A program made the translations under genes and the position numbers. DNA of 64,000 nucleotides from Chloroflexota bacterium (GTDB taxonomy: Bacteria > Chloroflexota > Limnocylindria > P2-11E). The notes beneath the pieces are model-generated. The model ran no database searches, was not told the DNA's origin, and saw only the letters and a program-made list of their open reading frames with translations. Shown piece after piece: positions 32,983 to 60,746 of the stretch; the stretch's first letter is position 1, and each line of letters begins with the position of its first letter. The stretch is from positions 106,893 through 170,892 of the forward strand of contig VBDU01000073.1 in assembly GCA_005883625.1 (NCBI GenBank), written 5' to 3'.

Positions 32983-33920
32983 GACGGGACCCGCTCGTCT
33001 CCTGACAGGCCGCGCAGCCCCCGCGCCCACTCCGCGCCGCTCATCGCGCGCTTTCCTGCCGGCTTGACCTCGTCGAGGCGGAGCCAGCCCGCGCCCGCGG
33101 CGACCTGCGGCGCGCCGTCGCGGATCGCGAGCGTGCCGCGCTCGACGCCGCGGCCGCCGTTCACCGTCGCCCGCAGGACCACGACGCGCTGACCGCGGAA
33201 CGTGGTGTACGCGCCGGGATCCGGCGTGTACGCGCGCACGATCCGTGTCAGCTCCTCCGCCGTCCGCGAGAAGTCGAGCGCGCCCGCGCGCGGGTCGAGC
33301 TTCGGCCCATGCGTCACCTGCGCCGGGTCCTGGGGTGTGCCAAGCGGCCACGCGCCCAGATAGCGCGGCAGCTCGTCCGCGAGAAGCGCGCCGCCGACCG
33401 CGGCCAGGCGCGTCTCGAGCTGGCCGCGCGTCTCGCCGGACGCGATCGCGGTCCGGCGCTGCGCGAGGATCGGGCCCGCGTCGAGCTCCGCCGTGCCCAG
33501 CATGAGCGTCACGCCGGTCTCGCGGTCCCCCGCGAGGATCGCGTGGGCGATCGGCGCGGCGCCACGCCACCGCGGCAGGAGCGACGCATGGACGTTAATG
33601 GCGTGCCCGGCCGCGGCCTGGATGAGCGTCGCGGGGATGCGGTTGCCATACGCGGCCCACACGAGGAGCTCCGGCCGCAGCGCGAGGACGGTCTCGAGCG
33701 CAGTGCCGCGCAGACCCGCCGGCTGGAAGACGGGGACGCCGATCGTGCGCGCCCGCTCTTTCACCGGCGGCTCGCGGAGCGCGCCGCGATGGGCCGGGCG
33801 ATCGGGCTGCGTGACGACGCCGACGAGCGCGAGCGTGCCGGCGTCGGCCAGGCCCTTCACCGCGTCGAGCGACGGGACGGCGAAGGCCGGCGTGCCGAGA
33901 AAGAGGGTGCGCGGCTTCAG
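32979..33920 (-). CDS. fmt: Methionyl-tRNA formyltransferase
   Basis: Fmt formylates initiator Met-tRNA. The 10-formyltetrahydrofolate domain has VVTQPDRPAHRG, AAYGNRIPATLI and HASLLPRWRGAAPIAHAIL, with the catalytic Asn-His-Asp region. The family N-terminus TLFLGTPAFAVPSLDAVKGL is encoded upstream of the first ATG/GTG/TTG (GTG at 33860). The only codon that fits the family length is CTG at 33920, which overlaps the def stop as CTGA in the same way as ATGA and GTGA overlaps elsewhere here. This gives 313 residues. The CTG start is an inference; a GGAGGAGG lies 13 bases upstream. Confidence 0.88.
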   Translation of the reverse strand: MKPRTLFLGTPAFAVPSLDAVKGLADAGTLALVGVVTQPDRPAHRGALREPPVKERARTIGVPVFQPAGLRGTALETVLALRPELLVWAAYGNRIPATLIQAAAGHAINVHASLLPRWRGAAPIAHAILAGDRETGVTLMLGTAELDAGPILAQRRTAIASGETRGQLETRLAAVGGALLADELPRYLGAWPLGTPQDPAQVTHGPKLDPRAGALDFSRTAEELTRIVRAYTPDPGAYTTFRGQRVVVLRATVNGGRGVERGTLAIRDGAPQVAAGAGWLRLDEVKPAGKRAMSGAEWARGLRGLSGDERVPS

Positions 33921-34558
33921 GCTGAGACCGAGGCCTCCTCCTCCGGCTCGACCGGATGGAGGTCCTCACGGGACTTCAGGCGATCGACGTAGAGGGTGCC
34001 GCTCAGGTGATCGGTCTCGTGGAGCATGCACTGCGCGCCGAACTCCTCGCCGGTAGCCGTGAACTTCTTCCCCGCGACGTCCGTCGCCCCCATGCGGGCG
34101 GCGACCGGCCGCTCGAGCATCCCGTAGAGTCCGCGCACCGAGAGGCAGCCTTCGCTCGTCTCCTCGACGGTGTCGCTCGTCCACTCGATCTTCGGATCGA
34201 CCGCGACGATCCCCGCCTCATCCACGTCCATGATCGCGACGCGGAGCGGCACGCCGATCTGCGGCGCGGCGATCCCGATGCCCCGCGCGACGACCATGGA
34301 CGCGAACATCCGCGCGACGAGCGCCTCGAGCTCCGGCCGCGCCAGGCGCGGCTTCTTCGCCACGGCGTGGAGCACCGGATCGCCGATCTGGCGGACTTCG
34401 ACAGCGTTCGCGGACAGGAACTCGGGCGTCGACCACTTCGTGCGCCGGCCCTTGTCGATCCGCCAGGGTGAGCCCTTCGTCACCCGCAGCCGCGGTGGCG
34501 GCGGCGGCTCGTTCGGCTCAGCCGGGGGCCGGGGGGCAGAGCCCGACTGTGATTCCAT
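33917..34558 (-). CDS. def: Peptide deformylase
   Basis: The 213-residue metalloenzyme removes N-formyl groups from new proteins, acting after Fmt. Motif 1 is GIGIAAPQIGVP, motif 2 EGCLSV and motif 3 HETDHLSG, with the Cys and two His metal ligands all present. About 45 residues precede the usual N-terminus; they are Pro-rich, and residues 4-13 (SGSAPRPPAE) are encoded by a GC-rich palindrome. The ATG shares one base with the priA stop. Confidence 0.94.
   Translation of the reverse strand: MESQSGSAPRPPAEPNEPPPPPRLRVTKGSPWRIDKGRRTKWSTPEFLSANAVEVRQIGDPVLHAVAKKPRLARPELEALVARMFASMVVARGIGIAAPQIGVPLRVAIMDVDEAGIVAVDPKIEWTSDTVEETSEGCLSVRGLYGMLERPVAARMGATDVAGKKFTATGEEFGAQCMLHETDHLSGTLYVDRLKSREDLHPVEPEEEASVSA
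34522..34547. repeat. GC-rich palindrome inside the 5' end of def
   Basis: GGGGGCCGGGGGGCAGAGCC is read in frame as part of the Pro-rich N-terminal extension of peptide deformylase. It matches the dispersed family and could pair as a hairpin near the def start. Confidence 0.55.
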
Positions 34559-36876
34559 CAGCCAAGCAGTGTCACCGGGTCGACATCGACCGTCCACTCG
34601 CCACTCACGGTGACGCGGTCGAGCATCCGGGCCGGATCGCGCCCGCGAAGGACGATCTGCGCGCGGTAGCTCCCCGCGCGCTTCGCCGCGAACGCCGGCG
34701 CGGGGCCGAGGACCTCGGCGTCGGCGCCGGCGGCCTCGCGCAGCCGCGACGCGAGCTCGTCCGCACGCCGTTCGACCGTGTCCTGGCGCTTCGCCTGCGT
34801 CGAGAGGAGCACGAGCCGCCCGAATGGCGGGTAGCCGAAGCGGCGGCGTCCCTCGAGCTCGACCGCCGCGAAGGTCGCGTAGTCGTGCGCGGCCGCGGCG
34901 CGGATCGCGTAGTGCTCCGGCAGGTACGTCTGCAGGATCCCGCGACCGCCCGCGGCCCCGCGGCCCGAGCGCCCGAGGACCTGCGTCAGCAGCTCGAACG
35001 TGCGCTCGGCCGCCGTGAAGTCCGGCAGGTTCAGGACGGTGTCGGCGTTCACGACGCCGACGAGCGCGACGCCCGGCAGGTCGAAGCCCTTCGCGAGCAT
35101 CTGCGTCCCCACGATCACCTGGGCCTTTCCCGACCGCATGCGCTCGTAGGCCGCGGCGTGCGCGCCCTTCGCACGGACCGCGTCGCGATCGAGACGGATG
35201 ACCGATGCGCGCGGGACGGCCGCGCGCACCTCCTCCTCGACACGCTGCGTGCCCACGCCCAGCTGCTTGAGGCGCGCGCTCCCGCAGGCCGGGCACGTCT
35301 CTGGAACGCGCGCCTCGCGCCGACCGCAGCGATGGCAGACGAGTACGTCGGGGGGCTTCGCCCCCCTGGTCGATGGGGGCTTCGCCCCCATGTCGGGGGG
35401 CTTCGCCCCCCGGCCCCCGGCCTGCACGTGATACGCAAACGGGATCTCGCAGGCGGGACAGAGGAGCACGTGGCCGCAGTCCCGGCACAGGACAACGGTC
35501 GCGAACCCGCGCCGGTTCAGGTAGAGGATGACCTGGTCTCCGGTCGCGACCGTCCGCTGCAGCGCGATACGCAGCGCGGTGGAGAGCGTCCCGCGGTTGC
35601 CGGCGCGAAGCTCGAGCCGCAGGTCCACGATCGTCGTCGGCGGGAGCGGACGCTCCCCGACGCGCTCGGGCAAGGGGAGAAGCGCGAGCTCGCCCGAGCG
35701 CGCCGCCTGGTAGGTCGTCACGCGCGGCGTCGCGCTCCCGAGGACGACCGTCGCCGCCGCGAGGCGCCCAAGGGCGAGGGCCGCGTCGACCGCGTGGTAG
35801 CGCGGAGCGCTCTCCTGCTTGTACGACGGCTCCTGCTCTTCGTCGACGACCACCAGCCCGACCCGCTCGAGGGGCGCGAAGAGCGCCGAGCGCGAGCCGA
35901 TGACGACGTCGGCGGCGCCGTCGAGGACGCGGCGCCACTCGTCGAACCGCTCGCCCGCCGAGAGGGCGCTGTGCAGGAGCGCGACGCGATCGCCGAAACG
36001 CGCGATGAACCTGGCGACCACCTGTGCGGTGAGGACGATCTCGGGCACGAGGACGATGACGCCGCGCCCGCGGGCGAGCGTCTCGGCCGCGGCACGCAGG
36101 TAGACCTCGGTCTTCCCGCTCGCCGTCACCCCGTGGAGGAGAAAGCCGTGCGGCGCTCCCCCTGCCGCGCGAGTGTCGCGCGGGGCGTCGAGCGGGGCGT
36201 CGAGCGCGCCGACGATGGCGGCGAGGGCCGCGGCCTGCGCTTCCGTCGCCGGCGAGTCGCGGTCGCGGTCCGCTTCCGCGAGCGCGAACTCGGCTGGCAT
36301 GCGGCGTACCGCGCGCCGTCCTTCAACCACGAGCGCGCGTTTGGCGAGGGCGCGGGCCGCCACCGACGACCCACCCGCCTCTGCGAGGTCGGCGCTCGTG
36401 AGCGCTCCCGCCACGAGGGCACGGAGCGTCGCGAGCTGGCGTGCCCCGAGCCGCACGCTCCCGGCAAGGGCCTCAGCGCCCGCGGGAGCGATCGAGAAGA
36501 GCGCCTCGCTCCGCTCGCCCCGCGCGGTCGCGAGACGGCCGCCCCGTGCCCGGGCCGCGAGGGCCGGCGGGACCATCGCGCGCACGGCGTCGGCGAGCGA
36601 GCACCGGTAGCGCTCGGCGATCCACGAAGCGAGCGCGAGCTGGTGCGGTCGCAGGAGCGGCAGCGGATGCGCGAGCCGCTCGATCGGTTTGAGGGCGCGG
36701 TCGACGACCGCTCCATCGAGCGAGATGACGACGCCGGGCACCGCGCGCGCTCCGAGCGCCACGTGGACGAGATGCCCCGGTGCGACCTCGATGTCCGCGG
36801 GCACTGCGTACGTGAACGTGCGAGCGGGGCCGCGCAGACCGGCGAAGACCGCGATCTCAGCAGTACGAGCGGTCAC
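34558..36876 (-). CDS. priA: Primosomal protein N' (replication restart helicase PriA)
   Basis: The 772-residue helicase reloads the replisome at stalled forks. The 3' DNA-binding domain is followed by helicase motifs: LLHGVTASGKTEVYLRAA (I), VLVPEIVLTAQ, VVDEEQEPSYKQ (II), VLGSATPRVTTY (III), and IVGTQMLAKGFDLPGVALVG. The zinc-binding cysteines start with LCRDCGHVLLCPACEIPFAY and resume at VCHRCGRREARVPETCPACG. Between them are about 24 extra residues with three GAKPP repeats (486-510), encoded by tandem GC palindromes. The GTG start overlaps the gmk stop (GTGA). Confidence 0.95.
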   Translation of the reverse strand: MTARTAEIAVFAGLRGPARTFTYAVPADIEVAPGHLVHVALGARAVPGVVISLDGAVVDRALKPIERLAHPLPLLRPHQLALASWIAERYRCSLADAVRAMVPPALAARARGGRLATARGERSEALFSIAPAGAEALAGSVRLGARQLATLRALVAGALTSADLAEAGGSSVAARALAKRALVVEGRRAVRRMPAEFALAEADRDRDSPATEAQAAALAAIVGALDAPLDAPRDTRAAGGAPHGFLLHGVTASGKTEVYLRAAAETLARGRGVIVLVPEIVLTAQVVARFIARFGDRVALLHSALSAGERFDEWRRVLDGAADVVIGSRSALFAPLERVGLVVVDEEQEPSYKQESAPRYHAVDAALALGRLAAATVVLGSATPRVTTYQAARSGELALLPLPERVGERPLPPTTIVDLRLELRAGNRGTLSTALRIALQRTVATGDQVILYLNRRGFATVVLCRDCGHVLLCPACEIPFAYHVQAGGRGAKPPDMGAKPPSTRGAKPPDVLVCHRCGRREARVPETCPACGSARLKQLGVGTQRVEEEVRAAVPRASVIRLDRDAVRAKGAHAAAYERMRSGKAQVIVGTQMLAKGFDLPGVALVGVVNADTVLNLPDFTAAERTFELLTQVLGRSGRGAAGGRGILQTYLPEHYAIRAAAAHDYATFAAVELEGRRRFGYPPFGRLVLLSTQAKRQDTVERRADELASRLREAAGADAEVLGPAPAFAAKRAGSYRAQIVLRGRDPARMLDRVTVSGEWTVDVDPVTLLG
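35348..35420. repeat. Three tandem GC-rich palindromes inside priA
   Basis: Three hairpin units, GGGGGGCTTCGCCCCCC at 35350-35366, GGGGGCTTCGCCCCC at 35375-35389 and GGGGGGCTTCGCCCCCC at 35395-35411, followed by GGCCCCCGG, are read in frame as the repeats RGAKPPD, MGAKPPST and RGAKPPD of PriA. They sit between the two halves of the zinc-binding region. Confidence 0.9.
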
Positions 36877-43594: not shown

Positions 43595-46500
43595 TCAGAC
43601 CTTTTCGATCTCCAGCTCGGCCCGTACCCCGTTGAGCTCGCCCTTCCACGCATGGCCGCGGCCCGCGAGGCCGCGGGTCACGCTCGTCGCGAGCGATTCC
43701 TCGGCCACGAACTCGCGGTAGCCCGCGAGGGCGTCCGCGATCGGGCCGTCGTAGCGCAGCACGATCCGGTCGGCGATGTCGAGGCCGGCCTCCTTGCGCA
43801 GGTTGTTCAAGTGGTGCGCGAGCTCGCGCGCCAGGCCCTCCCGCTCGAGGTCGGGCGTGAGGGCCGTCTCGAGCGCGACGGTCGCGCCGGCGTCGCGCGC
43901 GACGGCGTGTCCGGCCACGCCTTCGTGCGAGACGAGGACTTCCTCGGCGCCGAGCTCGAAGCCCTCGACCCGGATGCGTCCGTCCTGCCGCTCGTAGCGT
44001 CCCTCGGCCAGGGCTCGGCGCACCCGGGGCAGATCCTTCCCGAGCTTGGGACCGAGCACCTTGAGGTCCGGCTTTACGACCTCGCGCACCAGGCCCTCGG
44101 CCTGTTCGCGGACCTCGATCGCCTTCACGTTGAGCTCGTCCTTCACGACCTCCGCGAGCTCGCCCGCGCTCTCGAGGGCGCCTCGATCCCGATCGTTCGC
44201 GTCGAACACGACGATGAGCTTGGGCAGCGGCATCCGCGTCTTCACGCCCGCGCTCGACCGCGCGGCGCGGCCGAGCGCCACGACGCGCATGGCCGCCCGC
44301 ATGCGTCGCTCGAGCTCGTCGTCAAGACGCGCGGGCTCCTCTTGGGGGAAGTCGCTGTGGTGCACCGATGCCGGCGCGCCCCGGACCGCGGCGCGCACGA
44401 GATTCTGGTAGAGCTCCTCCGCGAGGAACGGCATGACCGGCGCGAAGAGCTTCGCGAGCGTGACGAGCGCCTCGTACAGCGTCTGGTATGCGGCGAGCGC
44501 GTCGCCGTGCGAGCGCGCCTTCCAGAACCGTCGCCGGTTCCGGCGCACATACCACGTAGAGAGCTCGTCCCAGAAGGCCTCGATCTTGAGGATCGCGCTG
44601 CGCACGTCATAGGCCTCGTACGCGCGACGGCAGTCCGCGACGAGCCGCGCCTGCGAGGACAGGAGCCAGCGGTCGAGGAGCGGACGCTCGGTCACCGGGA
44701 CCGCCCGCTCCGACGGATCGAAGCCGTCGAGGTTCGCGTACGACACGAAGAACTTGTACGTGTTCCAGAGGACGAGGATCTTGCGCTTGAGCTCCTCGAA
44801 CGGCGGCCAGCCGAAGTACATGATCTCCTGCAGATCGGCCTTGGCGACGACCCAGCGGATCGCGTCGGCGCCGACGAGCTCGCACGCCTCGACGAGGCTC
44901 ACCATGTTCCCGCCGGTCTTGTGGAACTCTTCGCCCGGCGCGGCGAGCATCGGCATGAACGTCTGGCACGCGCGGTACGGCGACTCGCCCGTCAGCACGA
45001 CGCTGAAGAAGAGCTCGGAATAGAACCACAGGCGGACCTGCTCGACCATCTCGACGATGTAGTCAGCGGGGAACCACTTCTCCCAGTACGCCTTGTCGTG
45101 CAGCCAGTCGAGCGTCGAGAACGGCACGATCCCCGCGTCCAGCCAGCAGTCCCCCACCTCGGGATCGCGCCTGCTCTCGGCCTTGCACTCCGGGCACGCC
45201 ACGACGACCTCGTCGATCCACGGGCGATGGAGCTCGCGGAGACGCTCGAGCCCGCGCACGGCGCGTTCCCGAAGCTCCTCCTCGCTCCCGATCACGAAGA
45301 AGTGCCCATTCGCGCACGTGTAGAAGGGGAGCGGGAGGCCCCAGTAGCGCTTGCGGCTGATGTTCCAGTCGCCCATGTTGTCGAGCCAGTTGTCCATTCG
45401 CCTGCCGGTCGCCGGCGGGATCCACGTCACCTTCGCGGCGGCGGCCTTCAGCCTCGGCCGCAGCTCCTCCATCGAGATGAACCATTCGTCGTCGACGCGG
45501 AAGACGATCTCCTCATGGCACCGCCAGCACTCGGGATACCGATGCGTGTAGGGCGTGGCACGGAAGAGGCGGCCGCGTTTCTGAAGATCGTCGGCGATCT
45601 CCTGTCCGACGTCGCGCGCCTCTTTGCCTTCAAGCCAGCCGTAGCCCTTCACGAACCTGGCGTTCTCGTCGATCGGGACGAGCACCGCGAGCTTCTCGGT
45701 CTTCGAGAGGGCGAAGTCCTCCGCGCCGCACCCAGGCGCGATGTGCACGAGTCCGGTGCCTTCGGCCTCGCTCACGTCCTTCCAGGCGATGACCCGGTGT
45801 CCGCTCACCCCCTCCTTGGCCGCAGGTAGCTCGTCGAACGGCCCCCCGTAGCGGAGGCCGACGAGCTCGCTCCCCTTCACGAAGCCGAGCACCGTGGGTG
45901 AGCCGGGGAGCGCGGTCCCAAGCGTGCCCTTCGAGACGATCAGCACCTCGTCGCCGACCTGCACGCGGGCGTAGTCGAGCTCGGGATGCACGGCGAGCGC
46001 GACGTTCGCCGGGAGCGTCCAGGGGGTCGTCGTCCACACCAAAAATGCCTCACGGGGGCCGGGGGGCAGAGCCCCCCGACCGGTGGCCACATCACGCACG
46101 ATCGGGAAGCGCACGAAGACGCTCGTGTGCGTCATCTCGCGGTAGCTGTCGATCATCTCGTGCTGGGAGAGCGCCGTGCCGCAGCGCGCGCACCAGGGCA
46201 TCGAGCGGTGCCCCCTGTAGAGCCAGCCCTTGTCGTGGCACAGCTTCAGCACGTGCCAGATGTGCGAGATGTTCAGGTCGCCGTACGTGTAGTAGGAGCT
46301 CGGCCAATCCATCCACTGGCCCATGCGGATCGAGCCCTTCGTGATCGCCACCGCGGACCGATCCACCCGCGCGCGGCACGCCTCCGAGAATCGGGCCAGT
46401 CCATATTTCTCGATGTCGCGCTTGCTGTTCAGGTTCAGCTCGCGCTCGACCTGCACCTCGACCCAGAGCCCCTGGCAATCGAATCCGTTCTGGTAGCGCT

Positions 46501-46792
46501 GGTCGAAGCCCCGCATCGCCTTGTACCGCTGGTACAGGTCCTTGTACGTGCGCGCCCATGCGGAATGAACGCCCATGCCCTCGACGTTCGCGGTGATCGG
46601 CCCGTCGAAGAACCGGAAGCGCGGTCCGCCCGCGTTCTTCTTCCGGAGGACCTCGAAGCTCTGCTCGCGCTCCCAGAGGTCGAGCACGCGGTGATCGACC
46701 TCGGGCAGGTCGAGCGTGGAGGGCACCGCCTGGAATCGCGTCCTCAGTCGGGGGGCTCCGCCCCCCGGCCCCCGCTCGCCCGTCTTCGCCAT
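43595..46792 (-). CDS. ileS: Isoleucine--tRNA ligase, divergent type
   Basis: A 1065-residue class I synthetase. FRFFDGPITANVEGMGVHSA contains the HIGH region, but the usual H-x-GH is replaced by GVHSAW. The KMSKS loop reads FHKTGGNM. LVWTTTPWTLPANVALAVHP is the conserved editing-domain motif, and NGFDCQGLWVEV and the Cys pairs WCARCG and CWRCHE are visible. Two GC-rich palindromes are read in frame (residues 7-15 and about 238-248). The ATG at 46792 has a GGAGG five bases upstream. It is preceded by a T-box leader, so expression should rise when tRNA-Ile is uncharged. Confidence 0.95.
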   Translation of the reverse strand: MAKTGERGPGGGAPRLRTRFQAVPSTLDLPEVDHRVLDLWEREQSFEVLRKKNAGGPRFRFFDGPITANVEGMGVHSAWARTYKDLYQRYKAMRGFDQRYQNGFDCQGLWVEVQVERELNLNSKRDIEKYGLARFSEACRARVDRSAVAITKGSIRMGQWMDWPSSYYTYGDLNISHIWHVLKLCHDKGWLYRGHRSMPWCARCGTALSQHEMIDSYREMTHTSVFVRFPIVRDVATGRGALPPGPREAFLVWTTTPWTLPANVALAVHPELDYARVQVGDEVLIVSKGTLGTALPGSPTVLGFVKGSELVGLRYGGPFDELPAAKEGVSGHRVIAWKDVSEAEGTGLVHIAPGCGAEDFALSKTEKLAVLVPIDENARFVKGYGWLEGKEARDVGQEIADDLQKRGRLFRATPYTHRYPECWRCHEEIVFRVDDEWFISMEELRPRLKAAAAKVTWIPPATGRRMDNWLDNMGDWNISRKRYWGLPLPFYTCANGHFFVIGSEEELRERAVRGLERLRELHRPWIDEVVVACPECKAESRRDPEVGDCWLDAGIVPFSTLDWLHDKAYWEKWFPADYIVEMVEQVRLWFYSELFFSVVLTGESPYRACQTFMPMLAAPGEEFHKTGGNMVSLVEACELVGADAIRWVVAKADLQEIMYFGWPPFEELKRKILVLWNTYKFFVSYANLDGFDPSERAVPVTERPLLDRWLLSSQARLVADCRRAYEAYDVRSAILKIEAFWDELSTWYVRRNRRRFWKARSHGDALAAYQTLYEALVTLAKLFAPVMPFLAEELYQNLVRAAVRGAPASVHHSDFPQEEPARLDDELERRMRAAMRVVALGRAARSSAGVKTRMPLPKLIVVFDANDRDRGALESAGELAEVVKDELNVKAIEVREQAEGLVREVVKPDLKVLGPKLGKDLPRVRRALAEGRYERQDGRIRVEGFELGAEEVLVSHEGVAGHAVARDAGATVALETALTPDLEREGLARELAHHLNNLRKEAGLDIADRIVLRYDGPIADALAGYREFVAEESLATSVTRGLAGRGHAWKGELNGVRAELEIEKV
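46053..46080. repeat. GC-rich palindrome inside ileS (editing domain)
   Basis: CGGGGGCCGGGGGGCAGAGC followed by CCCCCCGA encodes the segment TGRGALPPGPRE just before the conserved LVWTTTPW motif of IleS. It matches the dispersed family and does not disrupt the frame. Confidence 0.7.
46748..46774. repeat. GC-rich palindrome at the 5' end of ileS
   Basis: GGGGGGCTCCGCCCCCC followed by GGCCCCCG encodes residues 7-15 (RGPGGGAPRL region) of IleS. It could also form a hairpin just inside the ileS coding sequence downstream of the T-box terminator. Confidence 0.7.
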
Positions 46793-46802
46793 CTGGCCCT
46801 CC

Positions 46803-46839
46803 AAAAATCAAAACGCCGTCCCGAACGCTCGGGACGGCG
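46803..46839 (-). terminator. Intrinsic terminator of the ileS T-box
   Basis: A perfect 11-bp stem (CGCCGTCCCGA with TCGGGACGGCG, 4-nt loop) is followed on the minus strand by TTTTGATTTTT. It ends 10 bases before the ileS start and overlaps the CGTCCC segment typical of T-box terminators. Confidence 0.92.
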
Positions 46840-47056
46840 CAAGCCGCGGTACCACCCGAGTTGACGCGGCCGAGCCGCGTCCACTCTGTTGCGACGTCTG
46901 GGGGCTGGGGGGCGAAGCCCCCAACGCTTCGACGTCCGCGGTTGCTAACGGAGTGCCGCTCCGGCCGGGTCTAGTCGCCGCTTGTCGCGGCTTTCTTCCG
47001 GCGGCTCGGGGTCGATCGCCCCTCGAACGCCTTTCAAGACGAAGTCTAGCGCCTGG
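46806..47056 (-). promoter_or_regulatory. T-box riboswitch leader of ileS
   Basis: On the minus strand the conserved T-box GGGTGGTACCGCGG lies at 46844-46857, preceded by AACTC and by a perfect stem GACGCGGC/GCCGCGTC (46863-46881) and CAGAGTGGA, the usual antiterminator neighbourhood. The leader extends upstream about 200 nt with a GC-rich palindrome at 46899-46924 and a candidate specifier ATC at 47016-47014. In T-boxes uncharged tRNA pairs with the UGGN bulge and prevents formation of the terminator. The position upstream of ileS indicates tRNA-Ile sensing. The exact 5' end and specifier loop are not proven. Confidence 0.88.
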
Positions 47057-55350: not shown

Positions 55351-55377
55351 CGGGGGCCGGGGAGCGGAGCTCCCCGA
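55351..55377. repeat. GC-rich palindrome downstream of ilvE
   Basis: CGGGGGCCGGGGAGCGGAGC followed by TCCCCGA matches the dispersed family, with an extra GGAGC/GCTCC arm. It lies 20 bases past the ilvE stop on the minus strand and may stabilise or end that transcript. Confidence 0.6.
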
Positions 55378-55397
55378 GCGCTCCTTCTTCTTGGCGG

Positions 55398-60624: not shown

Positions 60625-60686
60625 GCGGCGGGGGTCCGCGGGGACGGAGGCGCCGCGACCCTAGAATCCTCGGACGCGCTCGGCCG

Positions 60687-60712
60687 TCGGGGGGCTCCGC
60701 GCCCCCCGGCCC
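60687..60712. repeat. GC-rich palindrome upstream of the BMP lipoprotein gene
   Basis: GGGGGGCTCCGCGCCCCCC followed by GGCCC matches the dispersed family, with one GC insertion in the loop side. It lies in the 122-bp gap before the BMP gene. No other signal was seen there except the ribosome binding site. Confidence 0.65.
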
Positions 60713-60746
60713 TCTGCTGCGCGCGGAGAGGGAGGTAATAGAGCGC

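Follow-up and report, generated by a model that had tools for sequence, protein, structure and literature searches.

The in-frame insert in the zinc region of PriA very probably marks one of the sites at which a small mobile palindrome of a REP/RPE-like kind, most often 27 nt long, has inserted. This element is dispersed and patchily distributed between close relatives, it occurs both in and between genes, and it lies in frame in several essential genes, where its copies occupy positions at which relatives have a turn, a tail or a linker. An initial annotation of the window, as we call the whole stretch of 64,000 nucleotides that was analysed, had recognised three tandem palindromes in frame in priA and had regarded them as a repeat expanding inside this gene. 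The palindromes and the open reading frame are borne out by the sequence and the hairpin positions, but the repeat is not private to PriA; instead, it belongs to a genome-wide family with members also in dnaG, ileS, def and mazG.

The priA gene (primosomal protein N′, 772 aa; 34558..36876, minus strand) is assigned by Pfam and PDB matches and encodes a full PriA. The Pfam families PriA_3primeBD, DEAD, Helicase_C and PriA_C are all matched, PDB PriA entries match down to 1e-101, and the 3′ DNA-binding, helicase and C-terminal domains are all present together with eight cysteines that are intact, as first described, and invariant in 24 of 24 aligned PriA sequences. The whole insert, QAGGRGAKPPDMGAKPPSTRGAKPPD (35347..35424, minus strand), replaces a DG turn with a net gain of 24 aa and extends a little beyond the 35348-35420 originally given for it. 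Of the four CxxC pairs of PriA, it is pair 2 (C473/C476) and pair 3 (C514/C517) that the insert separates, which bears out its placement between two cysteine pairs. On the coding strand the hairpins follow one another as GGGGGCCGGGGGGCGAAGCCCCCCGAC, ATGGGGGCGAAGCCCCCAT and GGGGGGCGAAGCCCCCCGAC, with the palindrome GGGGGC-GAA-GCCCCC, and encode GGRGAKPPD-MGAKPPST-RGAKPPD, in agreement with the peptides RGAKPPD, MGAKPPST and RGAKPPD read from them earlier. By alignment of copies, unit 1 (GGGGGCCGGGGGGCGAAGCCCCCCGAC; 35392..35418, minus strand; GGRGAKPPD) is a canonical 27-nt element. Unit 2 (35373..35391, minus strand; MGAKPPS) consists of the hairpin only, with an 8-bp stem, ATGGGGGC-GAA-GCCCCCAT, and unit 3 (35347..35366, minus strand; RGAKPPD) of a hairpin and GAC, without the 5′ G5 block. 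The hairpins themselves, at 35350-35366, 35373-35391 and 35394-35412, have core-to-core spacings of 24 and 21 bp. The three-hairpin stretch folds better than its shuffles by 4.1-4.6 s.d. as DNA and by 4.4 s.d. as RNA, and the genome contains GGGGGCTTCGCCCCC at 18 sites (9 per strand) compared with 0 for the reversed pattern; therefore, the stretch is not a product of chance. In an AlphaFold model of the window PriA (24 sequences; mean pLDDT 83.6), the insert at residues 486-509 has pLDDT < 50 and is flanked by short strands at 481-483 and 511-513, so that it is predicted to be a disordered, floppy loop at the tip of a hairpin, in line with the surface loop guessed at the outset.

Ten genus relatives were compared with the genome under study (G000), making 11 genus genomes in all. 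At the place of the insert, PriA orthologues from the genus and from the wider family carry a turn of two residues (DG; HVDGSLVCHRC and variants), which is the short linker expected of the family, with a longer linker, unrelated to the element, in G019 alone. In G007, one unit, HVGGRGAEPPDSLVCHRC, stands at the same codon as the insert of G000, with the loop GGA in place of GAA, and the count of units at this site is thus 3 in G000 and 1 in G007. The third codon positions in the insert stem are identical between these two genomes, whereas elsewhere in priA the third positions of Gly and Pro codons agree at 35 of 93, and GGG, CGG and CCC account for a minority of their codon families (22, 27 and 30%, respectively). 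Such agreement in minority codons indicates that the insert sequence is dictated by the DNA palindrome, probably recently so. The short turn in relatives, the varying number of units and the palindrome-dictated codons sustain the view first proposed, that of a DNA element and not an old protein feature; among the PriA orthologues aligned, an insert of the same length with synonymous codons was not found in distant relatives. Since G000 and G007 are not sisters, the single unit of G007 is best read as an insertion separate from that of G000.

Aligned copies of the element share flanks past the palindrome, with a G4-5 block, usually followed by NC, on the 5′ side and RAY on the 3′ side. The element can thus be written as 5′-(Y)GGGGG-NC-, followed by a hairpin without mismatches (G5C stem, triloop) and RAY-3′. 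In a census of 75 copies from G000 and its genus relatives, drawn from pattern searches and 438 kb of sequence stretches, C or T precedes the G run in 70 copies and the commonest triloops are GAA (35), GGA (9), AGA (8) and AGC (7). Of the 62 copies that could be measured, 27 have the modal length of 27 nt; variants of 28-33 nt are common, and the canonical 27-nt copy is, by inspection, free of stops in all six frames. The 15-mer perfect core GGGGGCNNNGCCCCC occurs 136 times in G000 compared with 1 for the reversed-pattern control, and GGGGCNNNGCCCC 172 times in the genome compared with 8 for its control. The core counts in the ten relatives, among draft metagenome-assembled genomes of the genus that, like G000, are 71-93% complete, are 68, 49, 48, 9 and 1, with none in the other five; G007, G005 and G002 are, like G000, rich in copies, and G001, G008 and G009 are free of them. 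So patchy a distribution would be expected if the element is mobile and not an old feature of the genome.

An element of this kind would be non-autonomous and may depend on an activity supplied in trans, other than a recognised Y1 transposase, that copies it in the form of a single-stranded hairpin. The Y1_Tnp domain (PF01797) was found in 0 of the 11 genus genomes, which are incomplete drafts, compared with 5 of 14 control genomes matched, and a Y1/RAYT transposase was rejected as the mover because none was found in the genome itself or in those of its genus. At 27 nt and stop-free in any frame, a copy would be neutral to the reading frame on insertion, and the peptide that it encodes (GGRGAxPPD and relatives) would be short, charged and disordered, so that insertions at exposed turns and linkers would survive. 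This neutrality is a property of a subset, since many copies are 28-33 nt long, and because such variants are common in the census the coding copies look filtered. In priA, a first full copy would have landed at the β-hairpin tip of the zinc region, and two more hairpins would then have followed at steps of 21 and 24 bp, for which slippage or tandem duplication offers the simplest route. Tandem growth is the simplest account of priA because other tandem loci of G000 have the same shape: in a pair on contig C4 (59266/59287) the units are 21 bp apart and the second is without the 5′ G5 block, like unit 3 of priA, and further pairs have spacings of 23-24 bp. A separate locus in G007 (C292, 7852-7907) holds a 41-bp tandem duplication comprising one whole element and its flanks, the two copies being nearly identical.

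Several further copies lie in the window. The def gene (peptide deformylase; 33917..34558, minus strand), which we take as such from its motifs GIGIAAPQIG, EGCLS and HETDHL, has a start codon that overlaps the priA stop and, by translation, carries in frame in its N-terminal tail a shortened copy of 24 nt with three C lost (MESQSGSAPRPPAEP...; 34524..34547, plus strand, opposite to the gene). Other variants occupy the def tail in G002 and G005, all three being different and in the same orientation, and none is present in G001, G003 (the sister of G005), G004, G007 or G008. The ileS gene (43595..46792, minus strand), presumably isoleucyl-tRNA synthetase from its sequence, probably has its true start at 46792, upstream of the 46726 chosen by the gene caller. 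A 27-nt element (46054..46080, plus strand, opposite to ileS) lies in frame ahead of FLVWTTTPW (TGRGALPPGPREAF), at a position where seven residues without an insert are found in most genus members, and another (46747..46773, minus strand) is in frame in the N-terminal tail (MAKTGE-RGPGGGAPR-LRTRF). A third 27-nt element (46899..46925, plus strand), recognised like the tail copies of def and ileS by comparison of syntenic contigs, lies in the ileS leader, and G001 and G002 have an empty site there that reads GAACACGACGTCG. At this one site, compared base by base between filled and empty alleles, no target-site duplication is visible, and here alone the element ends are placed to about 1 nt; a DNA search for empty sites with a 4.8-kb stretch of contig C4 returned mostly paralogues and was not used. 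Two variant copies lie between genes, one at 55352..55378 (plus strand) with the stem CGGGGAGC-GGA-GCTCCCCG, in which one G-C stem pair is A-T, and one at 60686..60713 (minus strand) with a 5-nt loop.

The leader upstream of ileS (46793-47010, minus strand; GGGTGGTACCGCGG, terminator) appears T-box-like from a partial Rfam T-box match that is below the gathering score (40.1 bits, E 2e-7), the GGGTGGTACCGCG motif and its place before ileS; no known RNA family is found by Rfam in the window at the gathering threshold. In addition, ileS of G005, G002 and G011 (L221, L222 and L233) contains, at the linker site, another in-frame hairpin, CGxxCGGG-CCGGC-loop-GCCGG-CCCGyyCG, in which the outer stem pairs covary (GC/GC, CC/GG, TT/AA) among the linker hairpins of the three genomes.

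In-frame copies also occur in the linkers of L019 and L015, which from their sequences we take to be dnaG primase and a MazG-type protein, respectively. The filled dnaG allele replaces the linker of relatives and is not a clean addition, and dnaG of G003 holds a decayed copy of the element. The coding phase in conserved regions is nearly always GAxPP (priA, dnaG, the ileS linker, mazG, and def of G002 and G005), and in N-terminal tails a GGxAPR phase also occurs. By predicted gene starts, 19 of 40 G000 copies with flanks are intergenic, 12 are at gene ends, 8 lie within genes and 1 is at an edge. The notion that coding copies are rare was rejected, since the predicted starts lay downstream of the true ones and several copies classed as intergenic are in N-terminal tails. 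Right after the dnaG linker (L244-L268), a block AAACAAAC...GAGCGTTAC-TAATGGCACTATTG retains rare codons throughout the family, with CAA, CGT and GCA in 18 of 18 genomes and AAA in 17, which suggests that a DNA signal overlaps the gene here, for instance an internal promoter serving a gene downstream.

In a tree built from PriA and DnaG with the inserts removed, G007 falls within the clade of G004, G006, G008 and G009, and G000 forms a separate basal branch; a forced clade of G000 and G007 is rejected (p 1e-65). As such, the priA insert needs 2 changes on the tree, and the dnaG insert 3 (G000; G003 and G005; G007), which indicates that separate lineages of the genus were hit at the same places in priA and dnaG. 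In the case of dnaG, the insertion may instead be older and have decayed since, as it has in G003. The expected number of hits in priA, dnaG and ileS is ~0.17 compared with three seen (P ~8e-4), values that are indicative because the genomes are incomplete. The expectation is a rough upper bound, in which each perfect-core copy of G007, G005 or G002 is given a gene of its own and genes are taken to number roughly one per kb, and it ignores that the hits share the same codon. There is a small chance that a non-Y1 activity moves the element with a target preference over and above survival alone, such that it enters fixed codons of the priA zinc hairpin tip, the dnaG linker and def in independent lineages and would thereby alter replication-restart or priming proteins. 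IleS of G007 and G008 (L226 and L227) forms a separate divergent group relative to the PriA and DnaG tree, and IleS of G014 (L228) resembles this group, a pattern that suggests gene exchange.

A single ancient insertion in priA and another in dnaG, passed on by vertical descent and since lost from most lineages, would explain why gene, codon and orientation are the same in G000 and G007 for priA and in G000, G005 and G007 for dnaG, and the decayed dnaG copy of G003 demonstrates that decay of inherited copies does happen. We nevertheless consider this history improbable, as G004, G006 and G008 (the members of the G007 clade with the region) and the outgroup genera keep an undisturbed DG turn, several scarless losses would be required in priA, and loops and unpaired bases vary between lineages over perfect stems. 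Local creation of palindromes by quasi-palindrome repair, in which the fork switches templates, with recurrence arising from local sequence and no mobile element involved, would fit the tandem growth in PriA. It would also fit the stem changes on both sides that are seen at 55352 and, in ileS, in the hairpins of G002, G005 and G011 (GC, CC, TT against GC, GG, AA), all of which agree with arm-to-arm correction. This origin is very improbable all the same, because one G5-NC-hairpin-RAY sequence at scores of unrelated loci calls for copying between loci.

A functional PriA loop under selection, for instance a new protein- or DNA-binding loop, could account for the preserved frame and for GAKPP occurring three times; however, the same peptide is carried by unrelated proteins, the codons track the palindrome and not codon usage, and the loop is predicted to be disordered and is missing in nearly all relatives, which leaves this explanation with very little probability. 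It is barely conceivable that the insert was produced by faulty assembly or binning at a hairpin repeat of short period: draft metagenome-assembled genomes are involved and GC-rich hairpins sequence poorly, but the full insert is < 80 bp and fits within one read, and the separate assemblies of G007 and G005 have in-frame copies of their own.

The mobile palindrome that we favour can be compared with the GTAG- and CGTC-tagged REPs described by Di Nocera and colleagues, who also recorded copies within genes for replication and repair, as well as CGTC families that lack a dedicated transposase (PMC3733652). It resembles GTAG REP/RAYT systems in its length of 20-40 nt, its perfect GC-rich hairpin, the unpaired block on one side and its patchy high copy number, and, as a short GC-rich palindrome in high copy (136 against 1 for the control), it has the character of a REP. 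Its palindrome is the same size as that of the S. maltophilia REP, 16 nt interrupted by 3 nt (PMC8266576). In contrast to GTAG REPs, the element has no GTAG or GGAG at the hairpin foot, with GGGGG-NC on one side and RAY on the other, and no Y1 (RAYT/TnpA_REP) gene was found in the 11 genus genomes. About half of the sampled copies are in predicted coding sequence, which may be a further difference. With CGTC REPs (including RPE-4 and RPE-6) it shares an 8-bp stem, the lack of a dedicated transposase and intragenic copies (PMC3733652), and its reverse strand often starts with GTC. CGTC REPs are defined by a CGTC tag, an 8-9 bp stem opening with A-T pairs, a 4-5 nt loop and a CCA tail (PMC3733652), whereas the element has a triloop, no A-T at the first two stem positions, a C-run tail and a variable base before GTC; in the 75-copy census stem length alone fits that definition.

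Rickettsia RPEs are in-frame inserts at the same locus in orthologues, with possible insertion hotspots (PMC3767692). The element is like RPEs and WPEs in forming tolerated in-frame inserts in many unrelated genes and at the same locus in orthologues, and its palindromes lie in frame in the open genes priA, dnaG, ileS and def. It differs from RPEs in its free-living, high-GC Chloroflexota host, in being shorter than their 100-150 bp, and in the tree, according to which independent insertions filled the priA site that is shared. Like MITEs it is dispersed, palindromic and presumably non-autonomous, but it is 27 nt long and no target duplication was seen at the one site checked. Because the tag tests failed for both REP superfamilies and no Y1 gene was found in the 11 genomes, we do not assign the element to a named family; it is best read as a new REP/RPE-like element, of a kind already known. 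In-frame palindromes in essential genes have so far been found mainly in Rickettsia and Wolbachia, with scattered intragenic REPs elsewhere. In these soil Chloroflexota, filled, empty and decayed sites exist in close relatives, so that a tree can give the order in which copies in proteins were inserted, tolerated and decayed; because the same codons were hit repeatedly, a hotspot can be tested against a survival filter, and the absence of RAYT raises the question of what moves such elements.

A wider spread of the 15-mer over Chloroflexota was rejected, as loci outside the family are mostly other repeats or single hits, and the distant 15-mer core in G231, G297 and G120 belongs to another repeat, TGTCATTGCGAGG...GAAGCAATC. 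The shared core pattern has 51 copies in G297 and 72 in G231, and L277-L280 (in G262, G231, G297 and G120) represent another dispersed palindrome, TGTCATTGCGAGGGGGCGCAGCCCCCGAAGCAATC. At L281, L282, L284 and L288, in distant Chloroflexota, hairpins stand beside a GGGGGT block like the 5′ block of the element, to which they may be related.
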